Both the position numbers and the translations under genes were made by a program. A DNA stretch of 64,000 nt from Aliarcobacter cibarius. GTDB lineage: Bacteria > Campylobacterota > Campylobacteria > Campylobacterales > Arcobacteraceae. The notes under the pieces are model-generated. The model did no database searches. It worked only from the letters and a program-made list of their open reading frames with translations, and was not told the DNA's origin. The stretch is from the NCBI RefSeq assembly GCF_013372265.1, contig NZ_CP054051.1, positions 1,376,587 to 1,440,586 of the forward strand, in the 5' to 3' direction. Positions 12,136-45,285 of the stretch are shown here, piece by piece (the first letter of the stretch is position 1; every line of letters begins with the position of its first letter).

Positions 12136-12587
12136 TTTGCTACCTTAAGTTAAATTTTCCCTGATTTTAGCGAAGTTTTGATAAAACATTGGAAATACTA
12201 AAAAACACCAAAGAATGATAATAGCTTCATCATCTTTATTTATATTATTTAACTTTATTTAGTATTTTTATCATATTTTTTGTTACAAAAGTTAGATTTA
12301 AAAAAATATATTAATATAATAGAATATTAAAATTATATATAAATTTAGGAATTAAAACTATTCAATATAATAGAAAGCTAGTTAAAGTTAGTGATATTTT
12401 AAATAGTGACATTCTTAAACAAATATCTTTAAAATATAACAAATCAGTAGAATTGATTTTTTATAGATTTTTAAATCATATAGATATTATTCCATTAAAT
12501 GGTACTACATCTATAAATCATATGATAGAAGATTTAAAAATTTCCGATTTTGAATTATCAAAAGAAGAAATAGAAGCTATTTCTAAC
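12136..12587. other. Intergenic stretch holding a gene remnant
   Basis: About 450 bases between the DjlA-like gene and ade. The first 180 bases are AT-rich with no clear gene and should hold the promoter of the minus-strand run. The rest is the 3' remnant of an aldo/keto reductase gene described separately. Confidence 0.5.
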
Positions 12588-12602
12588 TTAACAAAAAGAT
12601 GA
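12315..12602 (+). pseudogene. Aldo/keto reductase C-terminal remnant
   Basis: An open frame without a start codon from 12315 to the TGA at 12600-12602. Its translation ends like the aldo/keto reductase family: a YNKSVELIFYRFL helix, DIIPLNGTTSINHMIEDL (the IPGTT-type cofactor segment) and FELSKEEIEAISNL. Only about the last 80 residues remain; the catalytic Asp-Tyr-Lys-His part is gone. It overlaps the 3' end of the convergent ade gene by 15 nt. A deletion probably removed the rest. Confidence 0.7.
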
Positions 12603-14204
12603 AATAAAATTAAAATTATTTGAATCAAAGAGACCTTTATCACTTAATTTTATTTCAGGAATAACTAAAAGAGCCATAAATGAAAGCGTCATAAAAGGTG
12701 AATTTAAACTAGAACCTAATTTTATTTTTGCAAAATCATTTAACTCTTTATATTTTTGTGCAACTTCAAAACCTTGTTTATCACTTATAATTCCAGCAAT
12801 ACTTAATGGTAATACATTTAGATTATTTTTGTCTACACATACTATGCCACCTTTATTTTCTATTACACAATTAATAGCTTTTAAAATCTCTTCATCACTA
12901 CATCCTACAACAATAATATTATGTGAGTCATGTGCTACACTTGAAGCAATAGCACCTTTTTTTAGACCAAAACCTTTCACAAATGATATAGCTGGTTTTT
13001 TATCCTCATATCGATTAATAACTGCAATTTTTAAAATATCATTTTCTATATCACTTTCAAAAAATTCTGTTGTAGTTTTATATGTTGATTGTTTAGTTAT
13101 AAGTTCTCCATCAATAGCTTCAATAACACGTATCTTTTTAAAATCACTTTTAAATTTAAAATCATCTAATTTTTTTATATTTGTATGAAAATTATTAAGT
13201 AAAGTGTGTTCTATTTTTGGTAAAACTATTTGCGAATTACAATATAAAATTTCTCCATTAATCACTGTTTGAACTACTTCAAAATTTTCAAGATCTTTTA
13301 CTTCTATGAAATCAGCGCTATCCCCTACTCTTAATATTCCAACATCTAAGTTATAATGTTCAATAGGATTTATACACGCAATTTTTAAAACATCAAAAAG
13401 GTCATATCCTTTTTTAATACAACGTTTTACCAAACTATTTATATGTTCTTTTTCAAGATCATCTGGATGTCTATCATCACTACAAAACATTAAATCATTT
13501 TGATATTCTTTAATTAGAGGAGATAATGCTTCAAAATTTTTAGCAGCTGAACCTTCTCTTATAAGAATCTTCATTCCTTTTTCAATTTTTTCTTTAGCCT
13601 CTTCATAGCTAAAAGCTTCATGGTCTGTAGTTATTCCAGCTTGAATATAAGCTAAAAGTTTATCATCTTTCAAATCTGGGCAATGTCCATCTATTGGTTT
13701 ATTTTGTTCTTTCGCTAGTTTAATTTTTTCTAATACTTCTTTATCTTTAAATAAAACTCCAGGAAAATTCATCATCTCACTAAGATAGTAAATATTATTT
13801 TGCTCTAAAAGTTTTTGTACACTTTTAGAATCTAGTATTACCCCACTTGTTTCAAAAGGTGTTGCTGGAACACATGAAGGAGCACCAAAATAAAATTTAA
13901 AAGGAGTTTTATTTGAACTTTCTATCATAAACTTTATTCCTTCAACTCCTAATACATTTGCTATTTCATGTGGATCACTTACAGTTGCCACAGTTCCATG
14001 AGTTAAAGCTAATCTTGAAAATTCATAAGGAGTAAGCATTGAGCTTTCTATATGTATGTGAGCATCAATAAAACCAGGTAATAAATAATTAGTATATTTT
14101 TCTTCTGTTTTTTCAATAAAACTAATTTTTCCATCTTCAATACTTATGCAAGCAGGATAAATATTTCTATTTTTAATATCAACAATATTACTACATATTT
14201 TCAT
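12588..14204 (-). CDS. ade: Adenine deaminase
   Basis: Amidohydrolase that converts adenine to hypoxanthine in purine salvage. The metal site GFIDAHIHIESSMLTP near the N-terminus and CSDDRHPDDLEKEHI mid-protein are characteristic of bacterial Ade rather than eukaryote-type adenosine deaminase. The C-terminal domain has the SSVAHDSHNI segment. The 538-residue length is normal. It stands alone on the minus strand; its 3' end runs into the aldo/keto reductase remnant. Confidence 0.92.
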   Translation of the reverse strand: MKICSNIVDIKNRNIYPACISIEDGKISFIEKTEEKYTNYLLPGFIDAHIHIESSMLTPYEFSRLALTHGTVATVSDPHEIANVLGVEGIKFMIESSNKTPFKFYFGAPSCVPATPFETSGVILDSKSVQKLLEQNNIYYLSEMMNFPGVLFKDKEVLEKIKLAKEQNKPIDGHCPDLKDDKLLAYIQAGITTDHEAFSYEEAKEKIEKGMKILIREGSAAKNFEALSPLIKEYQNDLMFCSDDRHPDDLEKEHINSLVKRCIKKGYDLFDVLKIACINPIEHYNLDVGILRVGDSADFIEVKDLENFEVVQTVINGEILYCNSQIVLPKIEHTLLNNFHTNIKKLDDFKFKSDFKKIRVIEAIDGELITKQSTYKTTTEFFESDIENDILKIAVINRYEDKKPAISFVKGFGLKKGAIASSVAHDSHNIIVVGCSDEEILKAINCVIENKGGIVCVDKNNLNVLPLSIAGIISDKQGFEVAQKYKELNDFAKIKLGSSLNSPFMTLSFMALLVIPEIKLSDKGLFDSNNFNFISSFC

Positions 14205-14390
14205 TTATATTTTTCCTTACTTTTTTATAAGTGTATCTAATAGTTATTGTTACGATTCTTAGAATTTTAATTTTGTTTCTTTATAACGTGAATAACCTAT
14301 AATAAAGCTCTAAATTGTTAAAAAGACTTAATATGTCTTTTTGTTGAAATTTGATAAAATCTCTACCCTATAAAAATTATGGAGCAAAAA

Positions 14391-14792
14391 ATGTTTGGAA
14401 TGGGAATAACTGAAATTTTACTTATCGCAATAGTCGCTGTTATTGCCTTAGGTCCTGAAAAACTTCCTGATGCAATGGTTAAAATTGCAAGGTTATTTAA
14501 TAGTGTTAAAAAGGGTTTGAATGATGCAAAAACAACTCTTGACAATGAATTAAATATAAAAGAATTAAAAGATGAAGCAAACAAATTTAAAGCTCAAATT
14601 GAAGATACAAAATCTTCTTTATCTATTGAAAATAAGTTTGATTTAGGACTTGATGATATTTTAAAAGATGATTTAAAACAAGAGAGTGAAGTAGAAAAAA
14701 TCAGAGAAAAATTTGCAAAAGTAAATGAAGAAAAAGCTTTAGAAAAAAAAGAAGAAAAATTCTCTTTAAAAAATAGTGAGGATATTAAATAA
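14391..14792 (+). CDS. tatB: Sec-independent translocase protein TatB
   Basis: Membrane component of the twin-arginine export system. A short N-terminal transmembrane helix (MFGMGITEILLIAIVAVIAL) is followed by GPEKLP, an amphipathic helix and a long charged tail, as in TatB. The ATG at 14391 is preferred over 14379 because GGAG at 14381-14384 is then a well-placed ribosome-binding site. It overlaps tatC by one base (taATG). No tatA is seen here. Confidence 0.88.
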   Translation: MFGMGITEILLIAIVAVIALGPEKLPDAMVKIARLFNSVKKGLNDAKTTLDNELNIKELKDEANKFKAQIEDTKSSLSIENKFDLGLDDILKDDLKQESEVEKIREKFAKVNEEKALEKKEEKFSLKNSEDIK

Positions 14793-15523
14793 TGTTTGAA
14801 GATTTAAAACCACATATAGCTGATCTTAGAAAAAGATTAGTTATTTCAAGTATTACTGTTGTTATTATGTTTTTTGCTTGTTTTAGTTTCTATGAACCAA
14901 TCTTAGAATGGATGATGGTTCCTGTAAAACATGCTCTTCCTGCAGGGACTTCAATGATTGCAGTTGAAATTCAAGAAACATTCTTCACAGCTATGAAAGT
15001 AGCATTCTTTGCAGGATTTATTCTTTCTTTACCTGTAATTTTCTGGCAATTATGGTTATTTTTAGCTCCTGGATTATATGACCATGAAAAGAAACTTGTT
15101 ATTCCGTTTGTATTTTTTGCAACTTTAATGTTCCTTATGGGTGCATCTTTTGCATACTATATCGTTGTTCCTATTGGATTTGATTTCTTAATTGCATTTG
15201 GTAATAGTGTTGTTAGCGTATTACCTAGTATTGGAAAATACGTAGGATTTTTTACAAAACTTATGATTGGTTTTGGTATTGCATTTGAATTACCTGTTAT
15301 TACATTTTTCCTTGCAAAAATTGGTCTTGTTGATGATAAAATGCTAAAAGACTTTTTTAGATATGCGGTTGTTTTAATCTTTATCGTCGCTGCAATTTTA
15401 ACTCCTCCAGATGTTATTAGCCAAATTTTAATGGCTGCACCACTTCTTGTTCTTTATGGAGTATCAATTTATATTGCAAAAATATTTAACCCTGCACAAA
15501 AAGAAGAAGAGGAAGAAGAATAA
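14792..15523 (+). CDS. tatC: Sec-independent translocase protein TatC
   Basis: Polytopic core receptor of the Tat system with about six membrane helices, which binds twin-arginine signal peptides together with TatB. Family features are the DLRKRL motif after the short cytoplasmic N-terminus, FxxxPVIFWQLWLFLAPGLY, and PPDVISQ near the end. The 243-residue length is normal. It is coupled to tatB upstream; queA follows after one base. Confidence 0.94.
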   Translation: MFEDLKPHIADLRKRLVISSITVVIMFFACFSFYEPILEWMMVPVKHALPAGTSMIAVEIQETFFTAMKVAFFAGFILSLPVIFWQLWLFLAPGLYDHEKKLVIPFVFFATLMFLMGASFAYYIVVPIGFDFLIAFGNSVVSVLPSIGKYVGFFTKLMIGFGIAFELPVITFFLAKIGLVDDKMLKDFFRYAVVLIFIVAAILTPPDVISQILMAAPLLVLYGVSIYIAKIFNPAQKEEEEEE

Positions 15524-15524
15524 T

Positions 15525-16547
15525 TTGAGTGATTTTTTAAAAACTTCTAGCTATGATTTTTTTCTTCCACAGAACCAAATAGCAACTACTCCAGCAATAC
15601 CTGCTGATAGTGCTAAATTATTGGTTTATGATAGAAAAAATGACAAAATTATCCATACTGTATTTAAAAATATTATGGATTTTTTACCAGAAGAATTAAC
15701 TATTTTTTTAAATGATACAAAAGTAATAAAAGCAAGAATTTTTGGACAAAAAATAAGTGGTGCAAAAATAGAACTTCTTTTAAATAAACCTTTGTTTATG
15801 GATAGATTTTTAGTAATGATTAGAGGAAAAGTAAAAGTTGATACAAAACTTATATTTGATGAAAGTCTTACTGCTGTGGTTCTTGAACTAAATGAAGATG
15901 GTTCTAGAGTAGTTGAATTTTTTAAAGATGATAAAAAACTAGACTTTAATTCATTAGTAGAAATTTTAAATAAAATTGGACATATTCCTCTTCCACCATA
16001 CATGAATAGAGAAGATACAAAAGATGATGAAACAAACTATCAAACTTTATTCGCAAAAAATTATGGAGCTGTTGCTGCTCCTACAGCTTCCCTACACTTT
16101 ACTTCTGAACTTTTAGAAAAATTAGAAAAAAAGTATGGTTTAAACTATCTAACTTTACATGTTGGAGCAGGAACATTTAAACCCGTAGATGTAGAAGATA
16201 TTTTATCTCATCCAATGCACAGCGAATATTTTGAAATTAATAAAAATTGTAAAGATAAAATAGACAATGCAAAAAATATCTTAGCAGTAGGAACAACTGT
16301 AACAAGAACTTTAGAGTTCTATGCTAGAAAAAATATGATTTGTGGAGAGTGTGATTTATTTTTAAATCCTTCAAATAAGCCAATTATTGTAAATCACCTT
16401 TTAACAAATTTTCATCTTCCAAAATCTACTTTAATTATGTTAGTTGCATCTTTTATAGGACTTGAAAAAACACTAGAAATATATGATATTGCGATAAAAA
16501 ATAATTACAGATTTTACTCATATGGCGATGCCATGCTAATAATTTAA
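15525..16547 (+). CDS. queA: tRNA preQ1(34) S-adenosylmethionine ribosyltransferase-isomerase
   Basis: Transfers and rearranges the ribose of SAM to make epoxyqueuosine at tRNA position 34. The N-terminus SSYDFFLPQNQIATTPAIPA and later HVGAGTFKPV and NHLLTNFHLPKSTLIMLV are diagnostic. The open frame extends upstream inside tatC, but family alignment and the AGGAAGAAG site support a TTG start at 15525, giving 340 residues. It directly follows tatC and probably shares its transcript. Confidence 0.92.
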   Translation: MSDFLKTSSYDFFLPQNQIATTPAIPADSAKLLVYDRKNDKIIHTVFKNIMDFLPEELTIFLNDTKVIKARIFGQKISGAKIELLLNKPLFMDRFLVMIRGKVKVDTKLIFDESLTAVVLELNEDGSRVVEFFKDDKKLDFNSLVEILNKIGHIPLPPYMNREDTKDDETNYQTLFAKNYGAVAAPTASLHFTSELLEKLEKKYGLNYLTLHVGAGTFKPVDVEDILSHPMHSEYFEINKNCKDKIDNAKNILAVGTTVTRTLEFYARKNMICGECDLFLNPSNKPIIVNHLLTNFHLPKSTLIMLVASFIGLEKTLEIYDIAIKNNYRFYSYGDAMLII

Positions 16548-38495: not shown

Positions 38496-38925
38496 AATTG
38501 TGCTCTCCTTACAATTTTATACAACCAATTTATTCATCACTGATGATAAATTCAACATAAGTCTACTTAACCTTATTTGACAATTTTTAAAGATGAAAAC
38601 TTAAACAAAACAATATCAGTATAGAACCCATTAACATAATCTCTCCGTTAATCATCTTATCCTAATTCTATCTAAATTTCAAAGGAATTATCTATAAATT
38701 AAACAATATATTGCAACATTTTAATATAAATGTGTAAGATTTTTGTAATATTTAAAATTAGTAAATTAATTATTTATTTATATTTAAAGATTTAAGAAAT
38801 TATTTTATTAATTATAATCGAAAAATAAAGCTCTATAATAATTATTTTATTTTAAATAATCCAATAATAAAAATTATATTTTAAAGCCAGAAAATTATTG
38901 AAATTGTAGAAGTTTAAATTTAATG
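38496..38925. other. Intergenic region upstream of the secretion operon
   Basis: About 430 AT-rich bases between the TolC-like gene and the left end of the integrated element. No gene, tRNA or clear repeat was found. It must contain the minus-strand promoter of the secretion operon, but I could not identify boxes with confidence. Confidence 0.5.
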
Positions 38926-38971
38926 GCGACCCCAGCATGATTCGAACATGCGTCACTAGGAGGAAATCCGG
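38926..38971 (-). repeat. Left attachment site (displaced tRNA-Glu 3' end)
   Basis: 46 bases identical to the 3' half of the tRNA-Glu gene at 44697-44742, from the CCA end through the T arm into the anticodon arm. Identity stops right after the anticodon loop, as expected for recombinase crossover in a tRNA anticodon region. Confidence 0.9.
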
Positions 38972-39094
38972 ATTTTAATAATTTTTTTATAAACCTTAAA
39001 TTTTAACATATGCTAGAAAATACCAATTTATAGGGATTTATTAACATTTGACAAAACTCAATAAACCATATAAAATTCATTAAATATATTATGT

Positions 39095-39115
39095 GGTGTG
39101 AAATAGGTGTGAAAG
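39095..39115 (+). repeat. Tandem GGTGTGAAA pair at the left end
   Basis: Two copies of GGTGTGAAA (39095-39103, 39106-39114) separated by TA. The same 21-base block occurs at 44630-44650 near the right end. The position, paired direct repeats at both element ends in the same orientation, fits arm-type recombinase-binding sites. The left copy also covers the ribosome-binding region of the recombinase gene, which would permit autoregulation. Inferred function. Confidence 0.6.
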
Positions 39116-40216
39116 ATGGCAAGACATACAACAAATTTAACAGGTGTAATTTATAGAGATTCTATAACAAATGGGAAAGCTGATAAAACTTATTATATCA
39201 GATATAAAGATGAAAATAATATGACTGTGGAATTGAAAATTGGCAAATATAGTGAAGGTGTTAGAGAAGCTTATTGCAATGCAAAAAGAAATGAAATTTT
39301 AACAAAACAAAGAATCGGAGAAGAACCACCAATAATTGCTCAAAGAAAAAAAAGAGAAATTTTATCTATTCAAACTTTGGCTGATGAATATTTTTCACAT
39401 AGAGCTGAAAAAGAAACTAAGATAAATGATGAATTTTCGTATAAAGCTCACATATTACCTTTTTTTAAATTTTATGATTTAAATCGTATATCTAAAAATG
39501 ATATTTTGAAATTTACAAACCATTTAAAAGAAAAACAAAATTTAAATACAAAAAAACCGATAGCCCCCAAAACTATAAACAATATCTTAAATCTTTTAAA
39601 AGCAATAATAAAATACTCTTTAAAAAATGATTTAATTAGAAATGATTTCACAAAATATATAAATTTATTAGATATTGATAATGCTAGAGAAAGATTTTTA
39701 TCAAAAGAAGAGATAGAAATTTTATATGATAAAACAAAAAAAGATGAAGTTGCTTACTTATTTTTTAAATTAGCTTTGAGTACTGGAGGAAGATTATCAA
39801 CTATTTTAAATATTCATAAAAAAGATATTGATTTTACTCATAATCTTATAACTCTAAAAGATTTTAAAAATAATTCAACTTATAAAGCTTTCTTAACAAA
39901 GGATTTAAAAGAACTACTAATTTCAAAAATACAAAATATATCTTTGAATGATAAGATTTTTAAATCTAATCCAGGAAAAAGACTAAGAACTATTTTAGAT
40001 GATTTATTTAACATGGAAATTTACAAAGATGATAGAAAAAATAAAGTTGTAATTCATACTTTACGACATACATTTGCAAGTCATTTAGCTATCAATGGAA
40101 CTCCAATTTTTACTATTCAAAAATTAATGAATCATAAAGATATAAAAATGACTTTGAGATATGCAAAATTAAGTCCAGATAGTGGAAGAGAAGCTGTTGA
40201 AAACTTAGGAGTATAA
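39116..40216 (+). CDS. Tyrosine recombinase/integrase of the element
   Basis: 366 residues. An N-terminal arm-binding-like part (about 1-70) is followed by a SAM-like core-binding domain (about 85-180) and the catalytic domain. The catalytic pattern is visible: Arg in STGGRLSTIL, a lysine on the following beta turn, HTLRHTFASHLA, the H/W site LMNHKDI and the nucleophile Tyr in TLRYAKLSP. It should insert and excise the element at tRNA-Glu. Residual noncanonical N-terminus length is typical for epsilonproteobacterial island integrases. Confidence 0.92.
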   Translation: MARHTTNLTGVIYRDSITNGKADKTYYIRYKDENNMTVELKIGKYSEGVREAYCNAKRNEILTKQRIGEEPPIIAQRKKREILSIQTLADEYFSHRAEKETKINDEFSYKAHILPFFKFYDLNRISKNDILKFTNHLKEKQNLNTKKPIAPKTINNILNLLKAIIKYSLKNDLIRNDFTKYINLLDIDNARERFLSKEEIEILYDKTKKDEVAYLFFKLALSTGGRLSTILNIHKKDIDFTHNLITLKDFKNNSTYKAFLTKDLKELLISKIQNISLNDKIFKSNPGKRLRTILDDLFNMEIYKDDRKNKVVIHTLRHTFASHLAINGTPIFTIQKLMNHKDIKMTLRYAKLSPDSGREAVENLGV

Positions 40217-40331
40217 AAATACTTTAAATTTTATCCTATAAAGTGTTGACAGATCAGGCATTAAAATCTTAATATTAATTTTATATCTAAATAGATATAC
40301 TTTTATATATCTTAAATAAAGGATTAAAATT

Positions 40332-40562
40332 ATGTTAGCTGTTAAAAATACAAAACTTTTAGTATCAATGCCACAAAATTTATCAGATGAAGTTACAGAA
40401 TTTGCAAAAGAATTAAATCAAAATAAAAGTGCTTTAATAAATCAAGCTTTGGAATTTTATTTTGACCATTTGGATTTACAAATTGCAAAGAAAAGAAGTT
40501 TAGAAAAAAATGAAACTATAAGTTTGAGCCAAATGAGAAAATTATCAGATGAACAAATATAG
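40332..40562 (+). CDS. Ribbon-helix-helix antitoxin
   Basis: 76 residues: beta strand KLLVSMPQNLSDEV and helices FAKELNQNKSALINQALEFY form a ribbon-helix-helix DNA-binding fold. A charged C-terminal tail would wrap the toxin. AAAGGA precedes the ATG. It overlaps the toxin gene by 14 nt, the usual antitoxin-first order, and should repress its own promoter together with the toxin. A TTGACA box is present at 40247-40252. Confidence 0.82.
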   Translation: MLAVKNTKLLVSMPQNLSDEVTEFAKELNQNKSALINQALEFYFDHLDLQIAKKRSLEKNETISLSQMRKLSDEQI

Positions 40563-40839
40563 TTTAGATTTTGATAAAAAAGCTTCAAAAGATTTATTGT
40601 CTTTAGATAAATCTGTAAGGAATTTTATTTTAGATGAGTTAGAAATTTTTATAAATAATTTTGATGAAGATTATGAAAAAGAGTTGATAAAAATAAAAAA
40701 AATAAAATCTTTGCAGGGAGAATTTAAAGGTTTATTTAGATTAAGATTAAGAACTTATAGAATAATTTATGAAAAGCAAAATGAAAAACTTATAATTTTA
40801 GTTCTTAGAGTATCTCATAGAAAAGATGCTTATCAATAA
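40549..40839 (+). CDS. RelE/ParE-superfamily toxin
   Basis: 96 residues with the RelE-like pattern: SLDFDKKASKDLLSLDKSVR, KSLQGEFKGLFRLRLRTYRIIYE and VLRVSHRKDAYQ at the C-terminus, where basic and His/Tyr residues form the active site of mRNA-cleaving RelE toxins. Classification as RelE (ribosome-dependent mRNase) rather than ParE (gyrase inhibitor) is likely from the R-IIYE-H-R ending but not certain. Co-translated with the antitoxin. Confidence 0.82.
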   Translation: MNKYSLDFDKKASKDLLSLDKSVRNFILDELEIFINNFDEDYEKELIKIKKIKSLQGEFKGLFRLRLRTYRIIYEKQNEKLIILVLRVSHRKDAYQ

Positions 40840-41131
40840 AAAATTACAAAATCAAATTTTATTTTTTAACTGCCTAGTTTGACACTGATTAAAGTGGAGT
40901 ATTTTCTCCATTGAAAATATTAATTAAAATACATAGAGGTTCATCTAAAAGTTTGAAGTTAAAGATTGTTGATGATTACTTAGTTAACTATAAGAAAAGA
41001 GAATAACTCAGCCTAACTTTTTTAATTAAGCTATATTTTAATATTAAGTTATATATAAAATGATATTAATATACTATTATATAAATAGTATATTATTAGA
41101 TAAAATAATTATCTCTTCAACATATTAACAT
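40840..41131. other. Intergenic stretch with an operator-like palindrome
   Basis: About 290 bases. A short hairpin TGGAG/CTCCA is near 40900. A 31-codon plus-strand frame from a TTG near 40915 is not recognisable. The right half carries the perfect palindrome at 41068-41094, which resembles the ParA-cassette repeats at 60642 and 61383. No convincing gene. Confidence 0.5.
41068..41094. promoter_or_regulatory. Perfect 11-bp palindrome related to the ParA-cassette repeat
   Basis: AATATACTATT (41068-41078), five bases, then AATAGTATATT (41084-41094). The block 41051-41080 matches 61369-61398, upstream of the parA-like gene, at 27 of 30 positions, and ATTAATATACTATTA equals the complement of part of the copy at 60642-60667. 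It may be an operator for a ribbon-helix-helix type protein. The AT-rich background weakens the inference. Confidence 0.4.
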
Positions 41132-41359
41132 TTATTTCTCATAAAACTTATCCACAAATCCAACTATTCTTTCTAATACTCTAGTTACTATCATTTTTCT
41201 CTCTAGATATTTTGGAGCTACATTTAATGTTTTAGCAATATCATTAGGAAGTGGTTCTCTTTGTTCATAAATATAGGTATCTACAACTTTTTTTAGTTCA
41301 TCTTTATTTAGATTCTCTTCATCTGCAATTGCATTAAATGCTTTGACTTTCTCTTCATT
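41132..41359 (-). pseudogene. HsdR C-terminal remnant
   Basis: A minus-strand frame of 75 residues without a start ends FNAIADEENLNKDELKKVV, then PLPNDIAKTLNV and RVLERIVGFVDKFYEK. This resembles the C-terminal helical region of type I restriction endonuclease subunit R. It begins in another frame exactly where the hsdS remnant loses similarity, so the two genes were joined by a deletion that removed most of hsdS and hsdR. Confidence 0.65.
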
Positions 41360-41625
41360 GATAATAACAAAGTACCTTGAGGTAATACTTTAGCTGATGA
41401 CTTTTTTAATCCGAGTTCTGTAATAGTTCTGTTACTCCCCTTAATATATTTACTCTTTATTTCAGTAGAAGTAAACCATTGTATTTCACCATTCCAATAA
41501 TCTTCTTGTGTTGTATCAGGCGTTCCTCCACCAACAATAGAAGCAATATCTTTTAATGATATGTGTTGCCACTCGCCACTAAACTCTTTAAATCTTAACT
41601 TAGGTACATTAATACTTTTGCTCAT
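41308..41625 (-). pseudogene. HsdS N-terminal remnant (type I restriction specificity subunit)
   Basis: MSKSINVPKLRFKEFSGEWQ and SIVGGGTPDTTQEDYWNGEI are the typical start and first target-recognition domain of HsdS. Identity with the family runs to GTLLLS, where a normal protein continues SSRA-like. Here it continues in a frame that reads through part of hsdR out of frame and stops at 41308. Fewer than 90 of about 400 residues remain, so it is non-functional as a specificity subunit. No hsdM is present. Confidence 0.8.
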
Positions 41626-42078
41626 TTTAAACTCTTTTTAAACTATAGTTGTATACAATTACAGCACTTACGGTAAGTCCCTGCATGCACACTTACCTTG
41701 TCTTTATTTTTATTATATTCATAACAAAATCTTCAACTTTTTTATCACATTTATTTAAAATATCATTTACAAATAGCTCTTCTAAAATATTGATTTAATA
41801 AAATGTATAGTTTGTAAATATTTAAAAAATTTTTCACTAATAAAAACCTAAAACTTTTTGAAAAAAAGTTTTAGCAAGTGAGTCTCGTAGAGCAGAGAAT
41901 AAAAATGTGTACATTTTTGGGAAGTCATTCCCTATCTCTGCATTACATAAAAAGTGGATTTAATATTAAAATAATTCTTATGCAAACTACTTCAAATATT
42001 AAAATAAACTTTATACTATATATGCTAACATTGTAAAGAAAATATATAAAAAATTGATTTTCATAAGGAGAATTTAAG
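41626..42078. other. Noncoding stretch with consecutive hairpins
   Basis: About 450 bases between the hsdS remnant and the AbiEii pair. It holds a perfect 12-bp hairpin (41848-41859/41863-41874) and a three-way-junction-like fold at 41892-41941. The right end holds the promoter and an AAGGAG ribosome-binding site for the 113-codon gene at 42079. No gene was found. Confidence 0.6.
41892..41941. ncRNA. Three-way-junction-like structured element
   Basis: An outer stem GCAGAGA/TCTCTGC (41892-41898, 41935-41941) encloses two adjacent perfect hairpins: AAAAATGT/ACATTTTT (41901-41918) and GGGAA/TTCCC (41919-41932). Together with the hairpin at 41848-41874 this suggests a folded RNA or a small palindromic insertion. 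The transcribed strand is not known. Confidence 0.4.
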
Positions 42079-42420
42079 ATGAGAAGATATGTTAGAAGAG
42101 AAGTACTTCTTAACAATAATGTAAATATGTCTAATCAAAATATTACTCTAAATCATGAATCAAGTTATGATAATAAATTTTTAGCATATTGTAACTGGTC
42201 ATTTGTAAAAGATAAGCAATTAAAAATAAATGAAGCTTTGACTATCTTTGATCAATTTGAAAAAGAAAAAAGTCCTATATATGTAAGAATTTTTAATGAA
42301 ATGCCTAGAAATGTATTAGAAAAATTTGTTGAAAAAAATCATATTAACAAAGCTAAAATCAAATCAATTCACGCTGCATTAAAAGAGAAAACATCTTATA
42401 AAGTTGAAGAATATGAATGA
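42079..42420 (+). CDS. Small protein paired with the AbiEii-type gene, possible antitoxin
   Basis: 113 residues, soluble, with a basic N-terminus (MRRYVRREVLLN) and a helical C-terminal half (LKINEALTIFDQFEKEKSPI, NHINKAKIKSIHAALKEK). AAGGAG precedes the ATG. It overlaps the nucleotidyltransferase gene by 8 nt when that gene starts at ATG 42413. AbiE systems place a winged-helix antitoxin (AbiEi) in this position, but I see no winged helix and the protein is much shorter. Function as an antitoxin is inferred from position only. Confidence 0.6.
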   Translation: MRRYVRREVLLNNNVNMSNQNITLNHESSYDNKFLAYCNWSFVKDKQLKINEALTIFDQFEKEKSPIYVRIFNEMPRNVLEKFVEKNHINKAKIKSIHAALKEKTSYKVEEYE

Positions 42421-43294
42421 ATATGATTTTTCAGAACAAGCTGAATTATTAGAGGATGTAACTTATATATTAGATGATTATAATATAACTGATTGGAGTT
42501 TTGGTGGAGGAACAGCACTGTCATGCTATCATTATAATCATAGAATGTCTTATGATATTGATATTTTCACAGAAGATATAAGTAGTATTCAAAAACTAAT
42601 CGATTATAAGCTAGCTATTTGTGAAGGATTTGAAATTTCTGTAGAAGATACTGAAGTTTCAAATTCTGGAATAACATTTATCTTATCAGATCTAAATCAT
42701 CAACTTAAATTAGATTTTTTAGAAAGTAGATATCTAACTTCAGAACCTTTTATTGTGGATGATGTTTTAGGACTCAGAAACATAAAAATACAAACTCCAT
42801 TAGAAATTATTGCAAAAAAAATAAAACATAGAAAACATGTTACCATTAGAGATTATGTTGATTTTGCTTTTGTAGAAAAACAACACAATATAATTTCAAA
42901 AATTAAAAAAGAAAATATTGTTGATTTAGAAAGATTTATAGATATTTATAAACAATTTATATCAATTACAGATGAAGATTTCAATAATCACTTAGAATAT
43001 TTAAAGCCAAGATTTATGCAATGTAAAAATGATATAAAAGAAATTATTTATAAAGCTTTCAATCCTGGTAAAAATTTTTCTATTGCTATTGATAATAATT
43101 ATGAAGTTTTAGCTGTTGATGAATGGGTAAATATTTATGAAGATGGTTTTATTGATGCTGGAGAAGTATATAAAAAATACAATGAATTAAGTAAATTAAA
43201 ATTATCTTCAATTATTAATAAATCTGAAAATGAAATCACATACAGTGATATATTAGAATTATCAAATACTAATGTAAAAAAATTACTTTTATAA
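42413..43294 (+). CDS. AbiEii/AbiGii-type nucleotidyltransferase
   Basis: 293 residues. The nucleotidyltransferase motif is GGGTALSCYHYNHRMSYDID with IFTED: GGTAL, Arg, Ser and the DxD metal site. A second basic region, LRNIKIQTPLEIIAKKIKHR, corresponds to the conserved substrate-binding lysine part of this family. AbiEii toxins transfer nucleotides, and relatives (MenT) act on tRNA 3' ends. It forms a two-gene unit with the upstream small protein; an in-frame TTG at 42404 is an alternative start. Probably a toxin or phage-defence effector. Confidence 0.85.
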   Translation: MNEYDFSEQAELLEDVTYILDDYNITDWSFGGGTALSCYHYNHRMSYDIDIFTEDISSIQKLIDYKLAICEGFEISVEDTEVSNSGITFILSDLNHQLKLDFLESRYLTSEPFIVDDVLGLRNIKIQTPLEIIAKKIKHRKHVTIRDYVDFAFVEKQHNIISKIKKENIVDLERFIDIYKQFISITDEDFNNHLEYLKPRFMQCKNDIKEIIYKAFNPGKNFSIAIDNNYEVLAVDEWVNIYEDGFIDAGEVYKKYNELSKLKLSSIINKSENEITYSDILELSNTNVKKLLL

Positions 43295-43351
43295 TTAATG
43301 ATCAGATATTCTATTTGAAAAATTAAATAGTTTTGATAATATTTATTTTCC

Positions 43352-43862
43352 ACCTTCTTTGTCTCAGTTGTCTCCTTCTTGATTTTTTTATTTTTATAGG
43401 GAAAAAACAAAAGAAGGAAGATGATTTGATAGGGGAGGAAGGGAAGCGGAGACAACTTGCCCTTGTAACAAACTGGATTTAACAATTTGTTACAGGACAA
43501 GTTAAGTTATGACTCGACTTTTTCGGTCGGTCGCTTCGACTTAAGTAGATTATTGTTCAGCTCTTAATCTACAACACAATTACACTAGACGGTTCCCCTT
43601 ATCTAGTAACCTATATCTTTATCAATCCAGTATTAGTACTTATTACTAATTTAAAAACCTCTGTTTTATATCTTAACTGGTAAATCTATAGGGGTGTTCT
43701 TGCTACTACATAAATAGTAGAACGGGCATCTCCAAGGTGAATCGTACCACATACACATCCTCACACCTTGCTGATTTGGTCTCTTATTTGGCTATGATTA
43801 TTTTCGGTGAGTTCATTCTCACCTCATGTAAGTATTCCATTTATTGTAGGATTTCGCCTTAC
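43352..43862. ncRNA. Candidate large structured RNA, hairpin-rich region
   Basis: About 500 bases that look less AT-rich than the flanks, with no convincing coding frame and many perfect or near-perfect short inverted repeats: 43454-43472/43486-43503, 43545-43552/43565-43572, 43584-43589/43602-43607, 43632-43638/43644-43650, 43703-43708/43715-43720, 43733-43739/43764-43770, 43806-43811/43818-43823 and 43846-43850/43857-43862. GTTGTCTCC near 43370 also pairs with GGAGACAAC at 43448-43456. This density of local stems is what large ornate RNAs show. Family and strand unknown. Confidence 0.45.
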
Positions 43863-43980
43863 TGTGCAGTCCTTACACTCTACCGCTTAATAATAGTTTT
43901 ATTTGGACAATATTTTATTCTCAACATTTAAGTTGCTTTTTTGAAATTAGAATAAGGTTGATTTTATTTGTGATTTATGT

Positions 43981-44058
43981 TATAATGCTTTCACTTTTTT
44001 AGCAATTCTTGTAGTCGCCAAACTAACAGGTAAAGAATTGCTAGGAACCTCCTTTTTT
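43981..44058 (+). ncRNA. Candidate small RNA with promoter and hairpin
   Basis: A TATAAT box (43981-43986) is followed about 14 bases later by a perfect 11-bp stem (44000-44010/44033-44043) and a CCTCC plus six T run (44048-44058). This looks like a promoter and a short structured transcript ending in a U-tract, although ten bases separate stem and U-tract. The CCUCC tail is complementary to Shine-Dalgarno sequences, so an antisense role is conceivable. Confidence 0.4.
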
Positions 44059-44146
44059 AAACTTCAAAATATTCTCCAACAATAAAGTGGCTTTATATCT
44101 TTAAATTTAATTATTATAAAATTAGTAATAAAATAGAGTGCTTATT

Positions 44147-44240
44147 TGGCGTTTACTCACCCATTAAAATACTTAGAGCTTAGGCAAATTTATCGGGCGA
44201 TAAATCTGTCTAAGCAGATGTGAGCTTGCCAAAGCTCTAA
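44147..44240. ncRNA. Nested hairpins in the island's right part
   Basis: The inner hairpin 44178-44215 pairs 17 bases with one mismatch and one wobble around a 4-nt loop. Outside it TTAGAGCT (44173-44180) pairs with AGCTCTAA (44233-44240), and TTTGGC and CTCAC near 44147-44160 match GTGAG and GCCAAA around 44220-44233, so alternative folds compete. It could be an RNA or a folded recombination site; nothing identifies it. Confidence 0.35.
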
Positions 44241-44629
44241 ATATTTATATAAGTATATATAGATTTAGAAACAATGTAAATATAATGAATTTAGCGAAAA
44301 TATCGTTACAATATGTATTAAAGAATATTAGAATGACGTAGGGAATCAAATATACATAGAAATTTTAAGCACATAGCTTAAATTAATATATTAATTATAA
44401 ATTTTAATATTAAATTAATAATTTATTTTAATTTAGAGTATTAAGGTATTATAAAATTAAAAGCTCAGCAAAACTAATAAAAGACTAACTTTAAAAAACT
44501 AAACTATTTTTATCATATTAATTATTTAAAAGATAAATAAAACACTGAATAATATATTTTTTGTATTAGGAATAAAAACTTTATAAAATAATCTTAGCAT
44601 TGAAATTTTATTTATTTTTTTACAAGAGA

Positions 44630-44650
44630 GGTGTGAAATAGGTGTGAAAG
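44630..44650 (+). repeat. Tandem GGTGTGAAA pair at the right end
   Basis: Exact repeat of the 21-base block at 39095-39115, in the same orientation, 46 bases before the right attachment site. At this end no gene starts after it, which argues that it is kept as a protein-binding site of the recombinase and not just as a leader sequence. Confidence 0.6.
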
Positions 44651-44696
44651 TAAAAAATAGAAAAACTTTAAAAGTTCTAGAAGTACCATGATTACG

Positions 44697-44772
44697 TGGC
44701 GACCCCAGCATGATTCGAACATGCGTCACTAGGAGGAAATCCTAGGGTCCTTGGCCACTAGACGACAGGGTC
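44697..44772 (-). tRNA. tRNA-Glu (anticodon TTC)
   Basis: 76 bases, ending in an encoded CCA at 44697-44699. The anticodon loop ATTTCCT sits between CTAGG and CCTAG stems and gives TTC. The D-loop TCTAGTGGCCAAGGACC and T-arm are normal for tRNA-Glu. Its 3' 46 bases are repeated at 38926-38971, so this gene is the insertion site of the element; the copy here is complete. Confidence 0.93.
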
Positions 44773-44841
44773 TTTAAAAAGAAAATGGATTATAGTTTAG
44801 TTTCGGTTTTGTTTTGCTTAAAATTAAAAGATATAAACAGT

Positions 44842-45285
44842 CTACCTTATTCTTGTTAAACTATTTTTACCAATTTTATAAATTCTTGAAGATGTTGTTT
44901 CAAAAAAACCCAGATTATTTATCACTTCCACATCTGAATTATTTATAGCATATTCATATTGAAAATTTTCTTTTGTTTTATTAGCAGATGTTGAAGAAAG
45001 AATCTTGAATTTTTTTATAAAATCAAAGAAATGTGATTCTTTAGATATCACTCTAAATGATGATAAATTTGGATAAATGAATGTAGATTTTTTACTATTT
45101 CTAACTAATTTATTATATTTTTTAGGAATTCTTGTAAATTCTTTTAAAGTATTAAAACTATCTACTGTTTTAAGATTTTTTTGATTTTTATCTCTTTGTT
45201 TGGTAGCTGAAAGTTTCTCATCATTAATTGATGAGAAACCAACAGTGGTATCAGTTTGTACCAGGTACACCAAATTAGGATTCAT
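44842..45285 (-). CDS. Short Sua5/YciO/YrdC-family protein
   Basis: 147 residues. The family start LVYLVQTDTTVGFSSIND corresponds to the PTDTvYGLg motif, KQRDKNQK to the K-x-R pair and LSSTSANKTKENF to the SAN-x-SG nucleotide site of threonylcarbamoyl-AMP synthases. It is shorter than TsaC (about 190) and begins very near the motif. Whether it makes the tRNA t6A precursor is uncertain. The gene starts at the stop of carB (one-base contact), so it is co-transcribed with it. Confidence 0.75.
   Translation of the reverse strand: MNPNLVYLVQTDTTVGFSSINDEKLSATKQRDKNQKNLKTVDSFNTLKEFTRIPKKYNKLVRNSKKSTFIYPNLSSFRVISKESHFFDFIKKFKILSSTSANKTKENFQYEYAINNSDVEVINNLGFFETTSSRIYKIGKNSLTRIR

Follow-up and report, generated by a model that had tools for sequence, protein, structure and literature searches.

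Results

The window, meaning the whole stretch of 64,000 nucleotides analysed here, comes from the complete 2.34-Mb genome of Aliarcobacter cibarius and contains an integrative element whose insertion site is the 3′ part of a tRNA-Glu gene. The element is bounded by a 46-bp perfect direct repeat of this 3′ part (38924-38969 = 44697-44742). At its tRNA end it carries a large structured RNA, called RNA B below.

38924-44742, no strand assigned: integrative element, 5.8 kb, inserted in the tRNA-Glu 3′ part
39116-40216, plus strand: tyrosine integrase at the far end of the element (PF00589, E = 6.5e-25)
42079-43294, plus strand: cargo pair convergent with RNA B, a 113-aa ORF followed by an AbiEii-like nucleotidyltransferase
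43350-43889, minus strand: RNA B, large structured non-coding RNA of ~540 bases, 5′ AAGCGGUAGAG ... AAGGUGG 3′
44697-44772, minus strand: tRNA-Glu

The 113-aa ORF (42079-42420) gave no Pfam match, and the nucleotidyltransferase gene (42404-43294) matched PF08843 (E = 6.6e-12) and AbiEii in PADLOC (E = 2.1e-5). The element also holds a ParE toxin gene and a fragment of a type I specificity subunit. The sequence AGGTGTGAAA occurs at 44629-44649 and again at 39096-39116, close to both att ends, and these copies are likely arm-type sites of the integrase. An empty-site comparison with the flanks of another locus (L038) found no synteny.

An earlier note on this DNA had described dense local stems at 43352-43862, in a stretch less AT-rich than its flanks, and had proposed a candidate large structured RNA in the element. 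Folding of 43340-43900 (561 nt) places these stems above chance, with z = -4.7 on the minus strand and z = -6.3 on the plus strand relative to dinucleotide shuffles; 0 of 100 shuffles were as stable, and the segment had the most extreme fold among 26 sampled across the window. The G+C content is 36% at 43340-43890 versus 23% in the neighbouring ORF and 18% at 44300-44690, the whole window having 26%. The feature exceeds the earlier limits: the RNA spans ~43350-43889 and the conserved unit to which it belongs ~43312-44300.

When 200 related genomes were searched at the DNA level, 13 further homologues came up, full-length or nearly so and 75-93% identical, in four genera of Arcobacteraceae. A second search of 104 Arcobacteraceae genomes returned the identical set, with one intact copy per genome, and exact-pattern matches to RNA B in named records were Aliarcobacter MAGs. 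The consensus drawn from the 14-sequence alignment has 117 pairs, with 98.0% of cells paired and compensatory changes in 26 of the pairs, and none of 500 shuffles reached any of five covariation measures. When pair partners were slid by 1-3 columns, pairing fell to 32-44%. Moreover, the consensus energy (alifold) was -96 kcal/mol versus -29.6 ± 5.3 for shuffled alignments. Stems are exchanged among homologues, as in CUAC-UAGUAG to CUGC-GAAA-GCAG and GGUGAG/CUCACC to GGCAAG/CUUGUC. Closing helix 2, which joins 5′ GGUAG to the 3′ region, is the least certain helix and contains no compensatory pair.

The strand had not been given in the earlier note. The consensus energy of the opposite strand was -65 kcal/mol, against -96 on the minus strand; in the sense structure 152 cells are G-U and 33 are broken, whereas the same structure on the other strand has 175 broken cells. 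Because energy and broken cells agree, the RNA is assigned to the minus strand. These data confirm RNA B as a real large structured RNA of that strand, and the homologue alignment proposed earlier as a check for covariation has borne out the candidate inside its att-bounded element.

On one conserved core, RNA B has either of two dissimilar 3′ domains (3′ third), one in L043 and L044 and the other in the rest. The closing arms of the two versions are GUUGUCUCC/GGAGACAAC versus GUGUCACC/GGUGACAC.

The earlier statement that there is no good coding frame also holds. The units with RNA B (type 1) have no conserved coding frame on either strand and no conserved sense-strand ORF with a constant end. 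The only AUG kept in 14 of 14 homologues opens a frame (MWYDSPWRCPF...) that ends at differing places, and in L007 a compensatory helix pair alters codons of this frame, from P to R. Opposite-strand ORFs of 55-81 aa at nine loci were rejected as genes, since they track DNA conservation and their frame is lost through indels.

Rfam gave no match at the gathering threshold over the window, none at E ≤ 5 in 43250-44850, and no family at E ≤ 1 in four type 1 loci or in five loci of a second class (type 2, described below). Across gathering and permissive E-values these scans returned only tRNAs and chance matches. The earlier note had seen a likeness to GOLLD and ROOL while recognising none of their motifs, in line with the absence of any model match at E up to 5; membership in GOLLD, ROOL, OLE or ARRPOF was rejected, as no covariance model matched at any threshold used. 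The covariance check named in that note, group II intron models included, likewise matched no family, so a group II intron was also rejected. No reverse transcriptase or maturase was present among Pfam-scanned genes at the window locus and in scanned cargo elsewhere, a scan which ORF-less introns escape.

Searches outside the family were negative in each collection covered. The type 1 covariance model had no hit among 60 order-level and 41 phylum-level genomes. In a phage collection and in 72,556 plasmids, type 1 yielded short chance pieces only and type 2 the flanking tRNA only. In IMG/VR viral contigs, exact searches with three patterns of type 1 and one of type 2 gave no match; the 15-mer TTAGTTTGGCGACTA had 19 hits there, no more than chance, and was discarded. 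A 21-mer match in Zophobihabitans (L032) was likewise discarded, as the model gives it no support. Stav et al. 2019 (PMC6429828) have unnamed Arcobacter sp. L regions, among which RNA B may possibly figure. Relative to Rfam, RNA B is a new family, confined to Arcobacteraceae as far as tested.

RNA B forms the 3′ part of a conserved unit of ~1 kb that is common to otherwise different integrative elements. In pairwise comparisons of flanks, similarity runs from ~400 nt upstream of RNA B to its 3′ end and then stops abruptly. In the window and in L037 the unit lies within the element close to the att site on the tRNA-Glu side, and the integrase occupies the opposite end. No genome has more than one intact unit. 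Genes around the unit otherwise differ between elements, and RNA B is followed by changing cargo, in many cases in convergent orientation. Defence-type cargo includes AbiEii (window, L042), Eco57I/type IIG methylases (L043), HsdM (L045, L047, L122), AAA_5 (L041), and TPR-S and an HSDR_N/DndB-like protein (both L044). At L119 and L120 the units lie among tRNA genes, with no integrase or replication gene within the ~3 kb read.

Several loci show features of their own. At L048 (9480-9950, genome G009) a truncated type 1 remnant at tRNA-Glu keeps the leader and the first ~70 nt of RNA B, with other genes in place of the remainder; G009 has an intact copy at another site. In one element family (L041, L043, L044) an 83-aa helix-turn-helix-like ORF lies between Part A and the target hairpin of an otherwise kept leader. 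L035 (10185-11279) and L039 (8393-9553) encode homologous 364/386-aa proteins, convergent with RNA B and of unassigned family, with no Pfam or PADLOC match; ParA and transfer-type genes follow. L044 encodes a 1206-aa protein (12366-15986) that has an HSDR_N_2 domain, matches DndB weakly and adjoins the TPR-S protein; the two are possibly an uncharacterised defence pair.

Upstream of RNA B lies a leader that the earlier note does not mention. Its order in the direction of the RNA is P1, Part A, a purine-rich Shine-Dalgarno-like stretch, the target hairpin, P2 on the opposite strand, a palindrome and then RNA B.

44252-44280, minus strand: P1, candidate sigma70-type promoter towards RNA B, TTTACA-17-TATACT, 10/12 match
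44140-44248, minus strand: Part A, pseudoknot-capable, stem AAAUAUUUAGAGCUU/AAGCUCUAAGUAUUU with crossing stem UUGGC.../...GCCAA, from inverted repeats and homologues
44041-44067, minus strand: putative leader ORF, weak, 8 codons from a TTG start, with its end at the target hairpin
44001-44042, minus strand: antisense-target hairpin AGCAAUUCUU...AAGAAUUGCU, loop UUUGGCGA at 44015-44022, the loop kept with unrelated stems
43993-44058, plus strand: predicted antisense RNA (~66 nt) to the target hairpin, with ACCUCCUUUUUU at its end, deduced from P2 and a T run
43958-43986, plus strand: P2, candidate promoter directed across the target hairpin and away from RNA B, TTGATT-17-TATAAT, 10/12 match
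43920-43936, no strand assigned: palindrome CAACTTAAATGTTG shortly before RNA B, conserved in the majority of type 2 units as well
43787-43792, minus strand: GCCAAA in RNA B, proposed pseudoknot partner, unpaired in the consensus and complementary to loop UUUGGC

P1 and P2 score highest among the promoter matches of the region, which in total are no more numerous than in shuffles. The position of P1 is shared by the window locus, L035, L036, L038, L039, L040 and L048. Most units of either type have a P2-like site with a 17-nt spacer, at a distance of ~35 nt to the loop (20 in L037, 45 in L130); such sites recur in both types though the spacer sequences differ, and their single-locus scores are not beyond shuffles. 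The arms of the crossing stem of Part A change together among homologues, as read from the sequences with no control scoring (UUGGCAAG...ACAUAUCU / AGAUAUGU...CUUGCCAA). Arm variants are CACAUCU/AGAUGUG in L036, UUACACU/AGUGUAA in L035, CGGCAA/UUGCCG in L041 and UUGGUAGG/CCUACCAA in type 2. Short leader ORFs are present in most loci, several homologues having an ATG start, and their start, length and stop vary; the ORF is considered weak because its length is not conserved and some loci lack it.

A family search with the leader alone found units with the same kind of leader and a different RNA, which we call type 2. The type 2 RNA starts GAUAGGCAUAAUCUC..., spans ~450-495 nt in the alignment and often lies beside tRNA genes. 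It occurs in nine genomes (G008, G017, G018, G038, G047, G068, G080, G083 and G090; loci L119-L124, L130, L131 and L135). Its consensus energy was -65 versus -33 ± 4.4 for shuffled alignments, with 19 compensatory pairs versus 0-11. Both types carry an AAAUAA..AGAGACC stretch and the 3′ loop UAAAUCCA, and these common sequences suggest that the two may be distantly homologous. No genome holds both types (14 and 9 among 104 genomes), a non-co-occurrence that is not significant because only about one overlap would be expected.

The loop of the target hairpin is kept across both types. Of 14 type 1 loci, 13 have UUUGGCG (GUUGGCG in L038), as do 8 of the 9 type 2 loci, with UUUGCCG in L135. The stems around it are unrelated: AGCAAUUCUU/AAGAAUUGCU in type 1, UAGUUAG/CUAAUUA in L037, AAUAGC/GCUAUU in type 2 and GUGAAGCUC/GAGCUUCAC in L130, which, like L131, retains the loop on an unrelated stem. 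From complementarity we propose that the loop can pair as a pseudoknot with GCCAAA of RNA B in type 1 and with CGCC in type 2, where CGCCA is complementary to loop UGGCG. The type 1 GCCAAA is invariant or nearly so in the alignment, complementary to the loop and not covarying with it. Because this partner hardly varies, the pairing is tested only by L135, where loop UUUGCCG is matched by RNA partner CGGCA, a compensatory double change and the one such event.

Discussion

The anatomy of the unit is strong, and from it we infer function: transcription, antisense action, a switch, and a role in replication or maintenance. Our preferred reading, held tentatively, is that RNA B is dosed by an antisense RNA and acts in replication or maintenance of the element. 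According to this model, P1 would drive one minus-strand transcription unit of up to ~950 nt comprising the leader, the target hairpin and RNA B, and a short antisense RNA from P2 would dose the folding or the production of RNA B. The target of this antisense RNA would be the UUUGGCG loop in the leader hairpin, whose pairing with GCC(AAA) or CGCC of RNA B would be required for an activating pseudoknot. Since the loop, its partner and a candidate antisense promoter are present without a rep ORF, the controlled product may be the RNA itself; RNA B would occupy the place of the rep gene in related plasmid switches. The likeliest job would be control or priming of element replication or maintenance after excision. 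Replication, priming or maintenance is our first choice because antisense dosing is typical of copy control, and RNA B may act once per element copy because the level of an antisense RNA follows gene copy number.

This reading draws on the covariation and strand of RNA B, the shared ~1-kb unit, P1 and P2, the kept loop, the L135 pair and the limit of one intact unit per genome. Against it, the unit is absent from the 72,556 plasmids, and copy control makes less sense at L119 and L120, unless these are remnants, since the ~3 kb read there holds no integrase or replication gene. In a more specific form, which we regard as rather doubtful, the unit would be an RNA-only module for replication or maintenance. 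Integrative elements of Arcobacteraceae would then rely on a large ornate RNA, of at least two classes, and not on a Rep protein, as the initiator or primer; an IncI-like antisense/pseudoknot switch on the RNA itself would fix the copy number.

Among other explanations, the one that survives best is possible, although we lean against it: RNA B may be a free-standing ornate RNA like GOLLD or ROOL, perhaps self-assembling and with a phage or element role, whose dose alone is limited by the antisense leader. Its size, density of structure, location in mobile elements and frequent adjacency to tRNA genes fit the class described in PMC12286853, and the presence of two structured classes behind the same kind of leader is also consistent with it. 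However, no model of GOLLD, ROOL, OLE or ARRPOF matches, phage and plasmid records and, by the exact patterns tried, IMG/VR lack the RNA, and a copy-control-like leader is not a described feature of such RNAs.

The defence-type genes next to many units (AbiEii, Eco57I/type IIG, HsdM, AAA_5, TPR-S and HSDR_N/DndB-like) would suit an accessory defence or exclusion RNA, part of the cargo of a defence hotspot and silenced by the antisense RNA until infection or entry of a related element. We judge this unlikely, since the logic of the leader is that of copy control. Moreover, the cargo changes while the RNA stays, which argues against RNA B being the partner of one defence gene.

An antisense RNA, a leader and a structured mRNA are also the components of type I toxin-antitoxin systems in the hok/sok style, in which case RNA B would conceal the reading frame of a small toxin and act as an mRNA under control of the leader. 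The loop of the target hairpin is of the YUNR kind. However, type 1 has no conserved small sense-strand ORF, its AUG frame is lost when helices change, and type 2, as judged by reading of the alignment only, also appears to lack such an ORF; we give this explanation very little weight. Least probable is a recombination or replication site acting as DNA, which the sharp ends of the unit would suit but which is opposed by G-U pairs kept on one strand only, with the accompanying difference in broken cells, a pattern not expected of DNA hairpins.

The function of large ornate bacterial RNAs is a long-standing question. An ornate RNA with a recognisable plasmid-type control device offers a concrete and testable idea on dosage and element maintenance, and the two RNA classes behind one kind of leader provide material for comparison.

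Among known systems, GOLLD and ROOL lie in mobile DNA, often near tRNA genes (PMC12286853). Like these RNAs and like OLE and ARRPOF, the last named for a plasmid replication region, RNA B is large, densely structured and non-coding. Unlike them, it has other motifs and an antisense/pseudoknot leader, and it gives no covariance match at permissive E-values.

RNA II of ColE1 is a non-coding structured RNA of ~550 nt whose dose is set by a small antisense RNA, RNA I, through binding to loops close to the 5′ end. RNA B (~540 bases) resembles the RNA II/RNA I pair in size and in the layout of the proposed antisense dosing, but has no sequence or model similarity to it. An A-rich 3′ end (GACAAAAAAGGUGG) is present in type 1 and not in type 2.

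The closest likeness of the leader is to replication control in IncL/M plasmids, where RNA I of ~77 nt binds the rep mRNA leader and sequesters pseudoknot bases needed for repA translation (PMC8125031), and in I-complex plasmids, which use the same kind of control (PMC10724649). The target loop of ColIb-P9 carries 5′-rUUGGCG-3′, according to the title of J Biol Chem 1998 273:11826 (cited in PMC10724649). Our leader shares with IncL/M and the I-complex plasmids (IncI-alpha ColIb-P9, IncB, IncK) a hairpin loop with UUGGCG; it may also share a small antisense RNA from the opposite strand (~66 nt predicted here, as against ~77 nt in IncL/M) and, possibly, a leader ORF ending at the hairpin. In addition, the loop is proposed to pair with a downstream GCC/CGCC, so antisense binding would compete with the pseudoknot. 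No Rfam antisense-RNA family matches the unit. In contrast to IncI and IncL/M, no rep ORF or Rep protein follows, its place being taken by a structured non-coding RNA of 450-540 nt; the hosts are chromosomal integrative elements of Arcobacteraceae, and an extra pseudoknot-capable 5′ leader (Part A) is present. By this analogy, the leader appears to be a new use of a known control logic.
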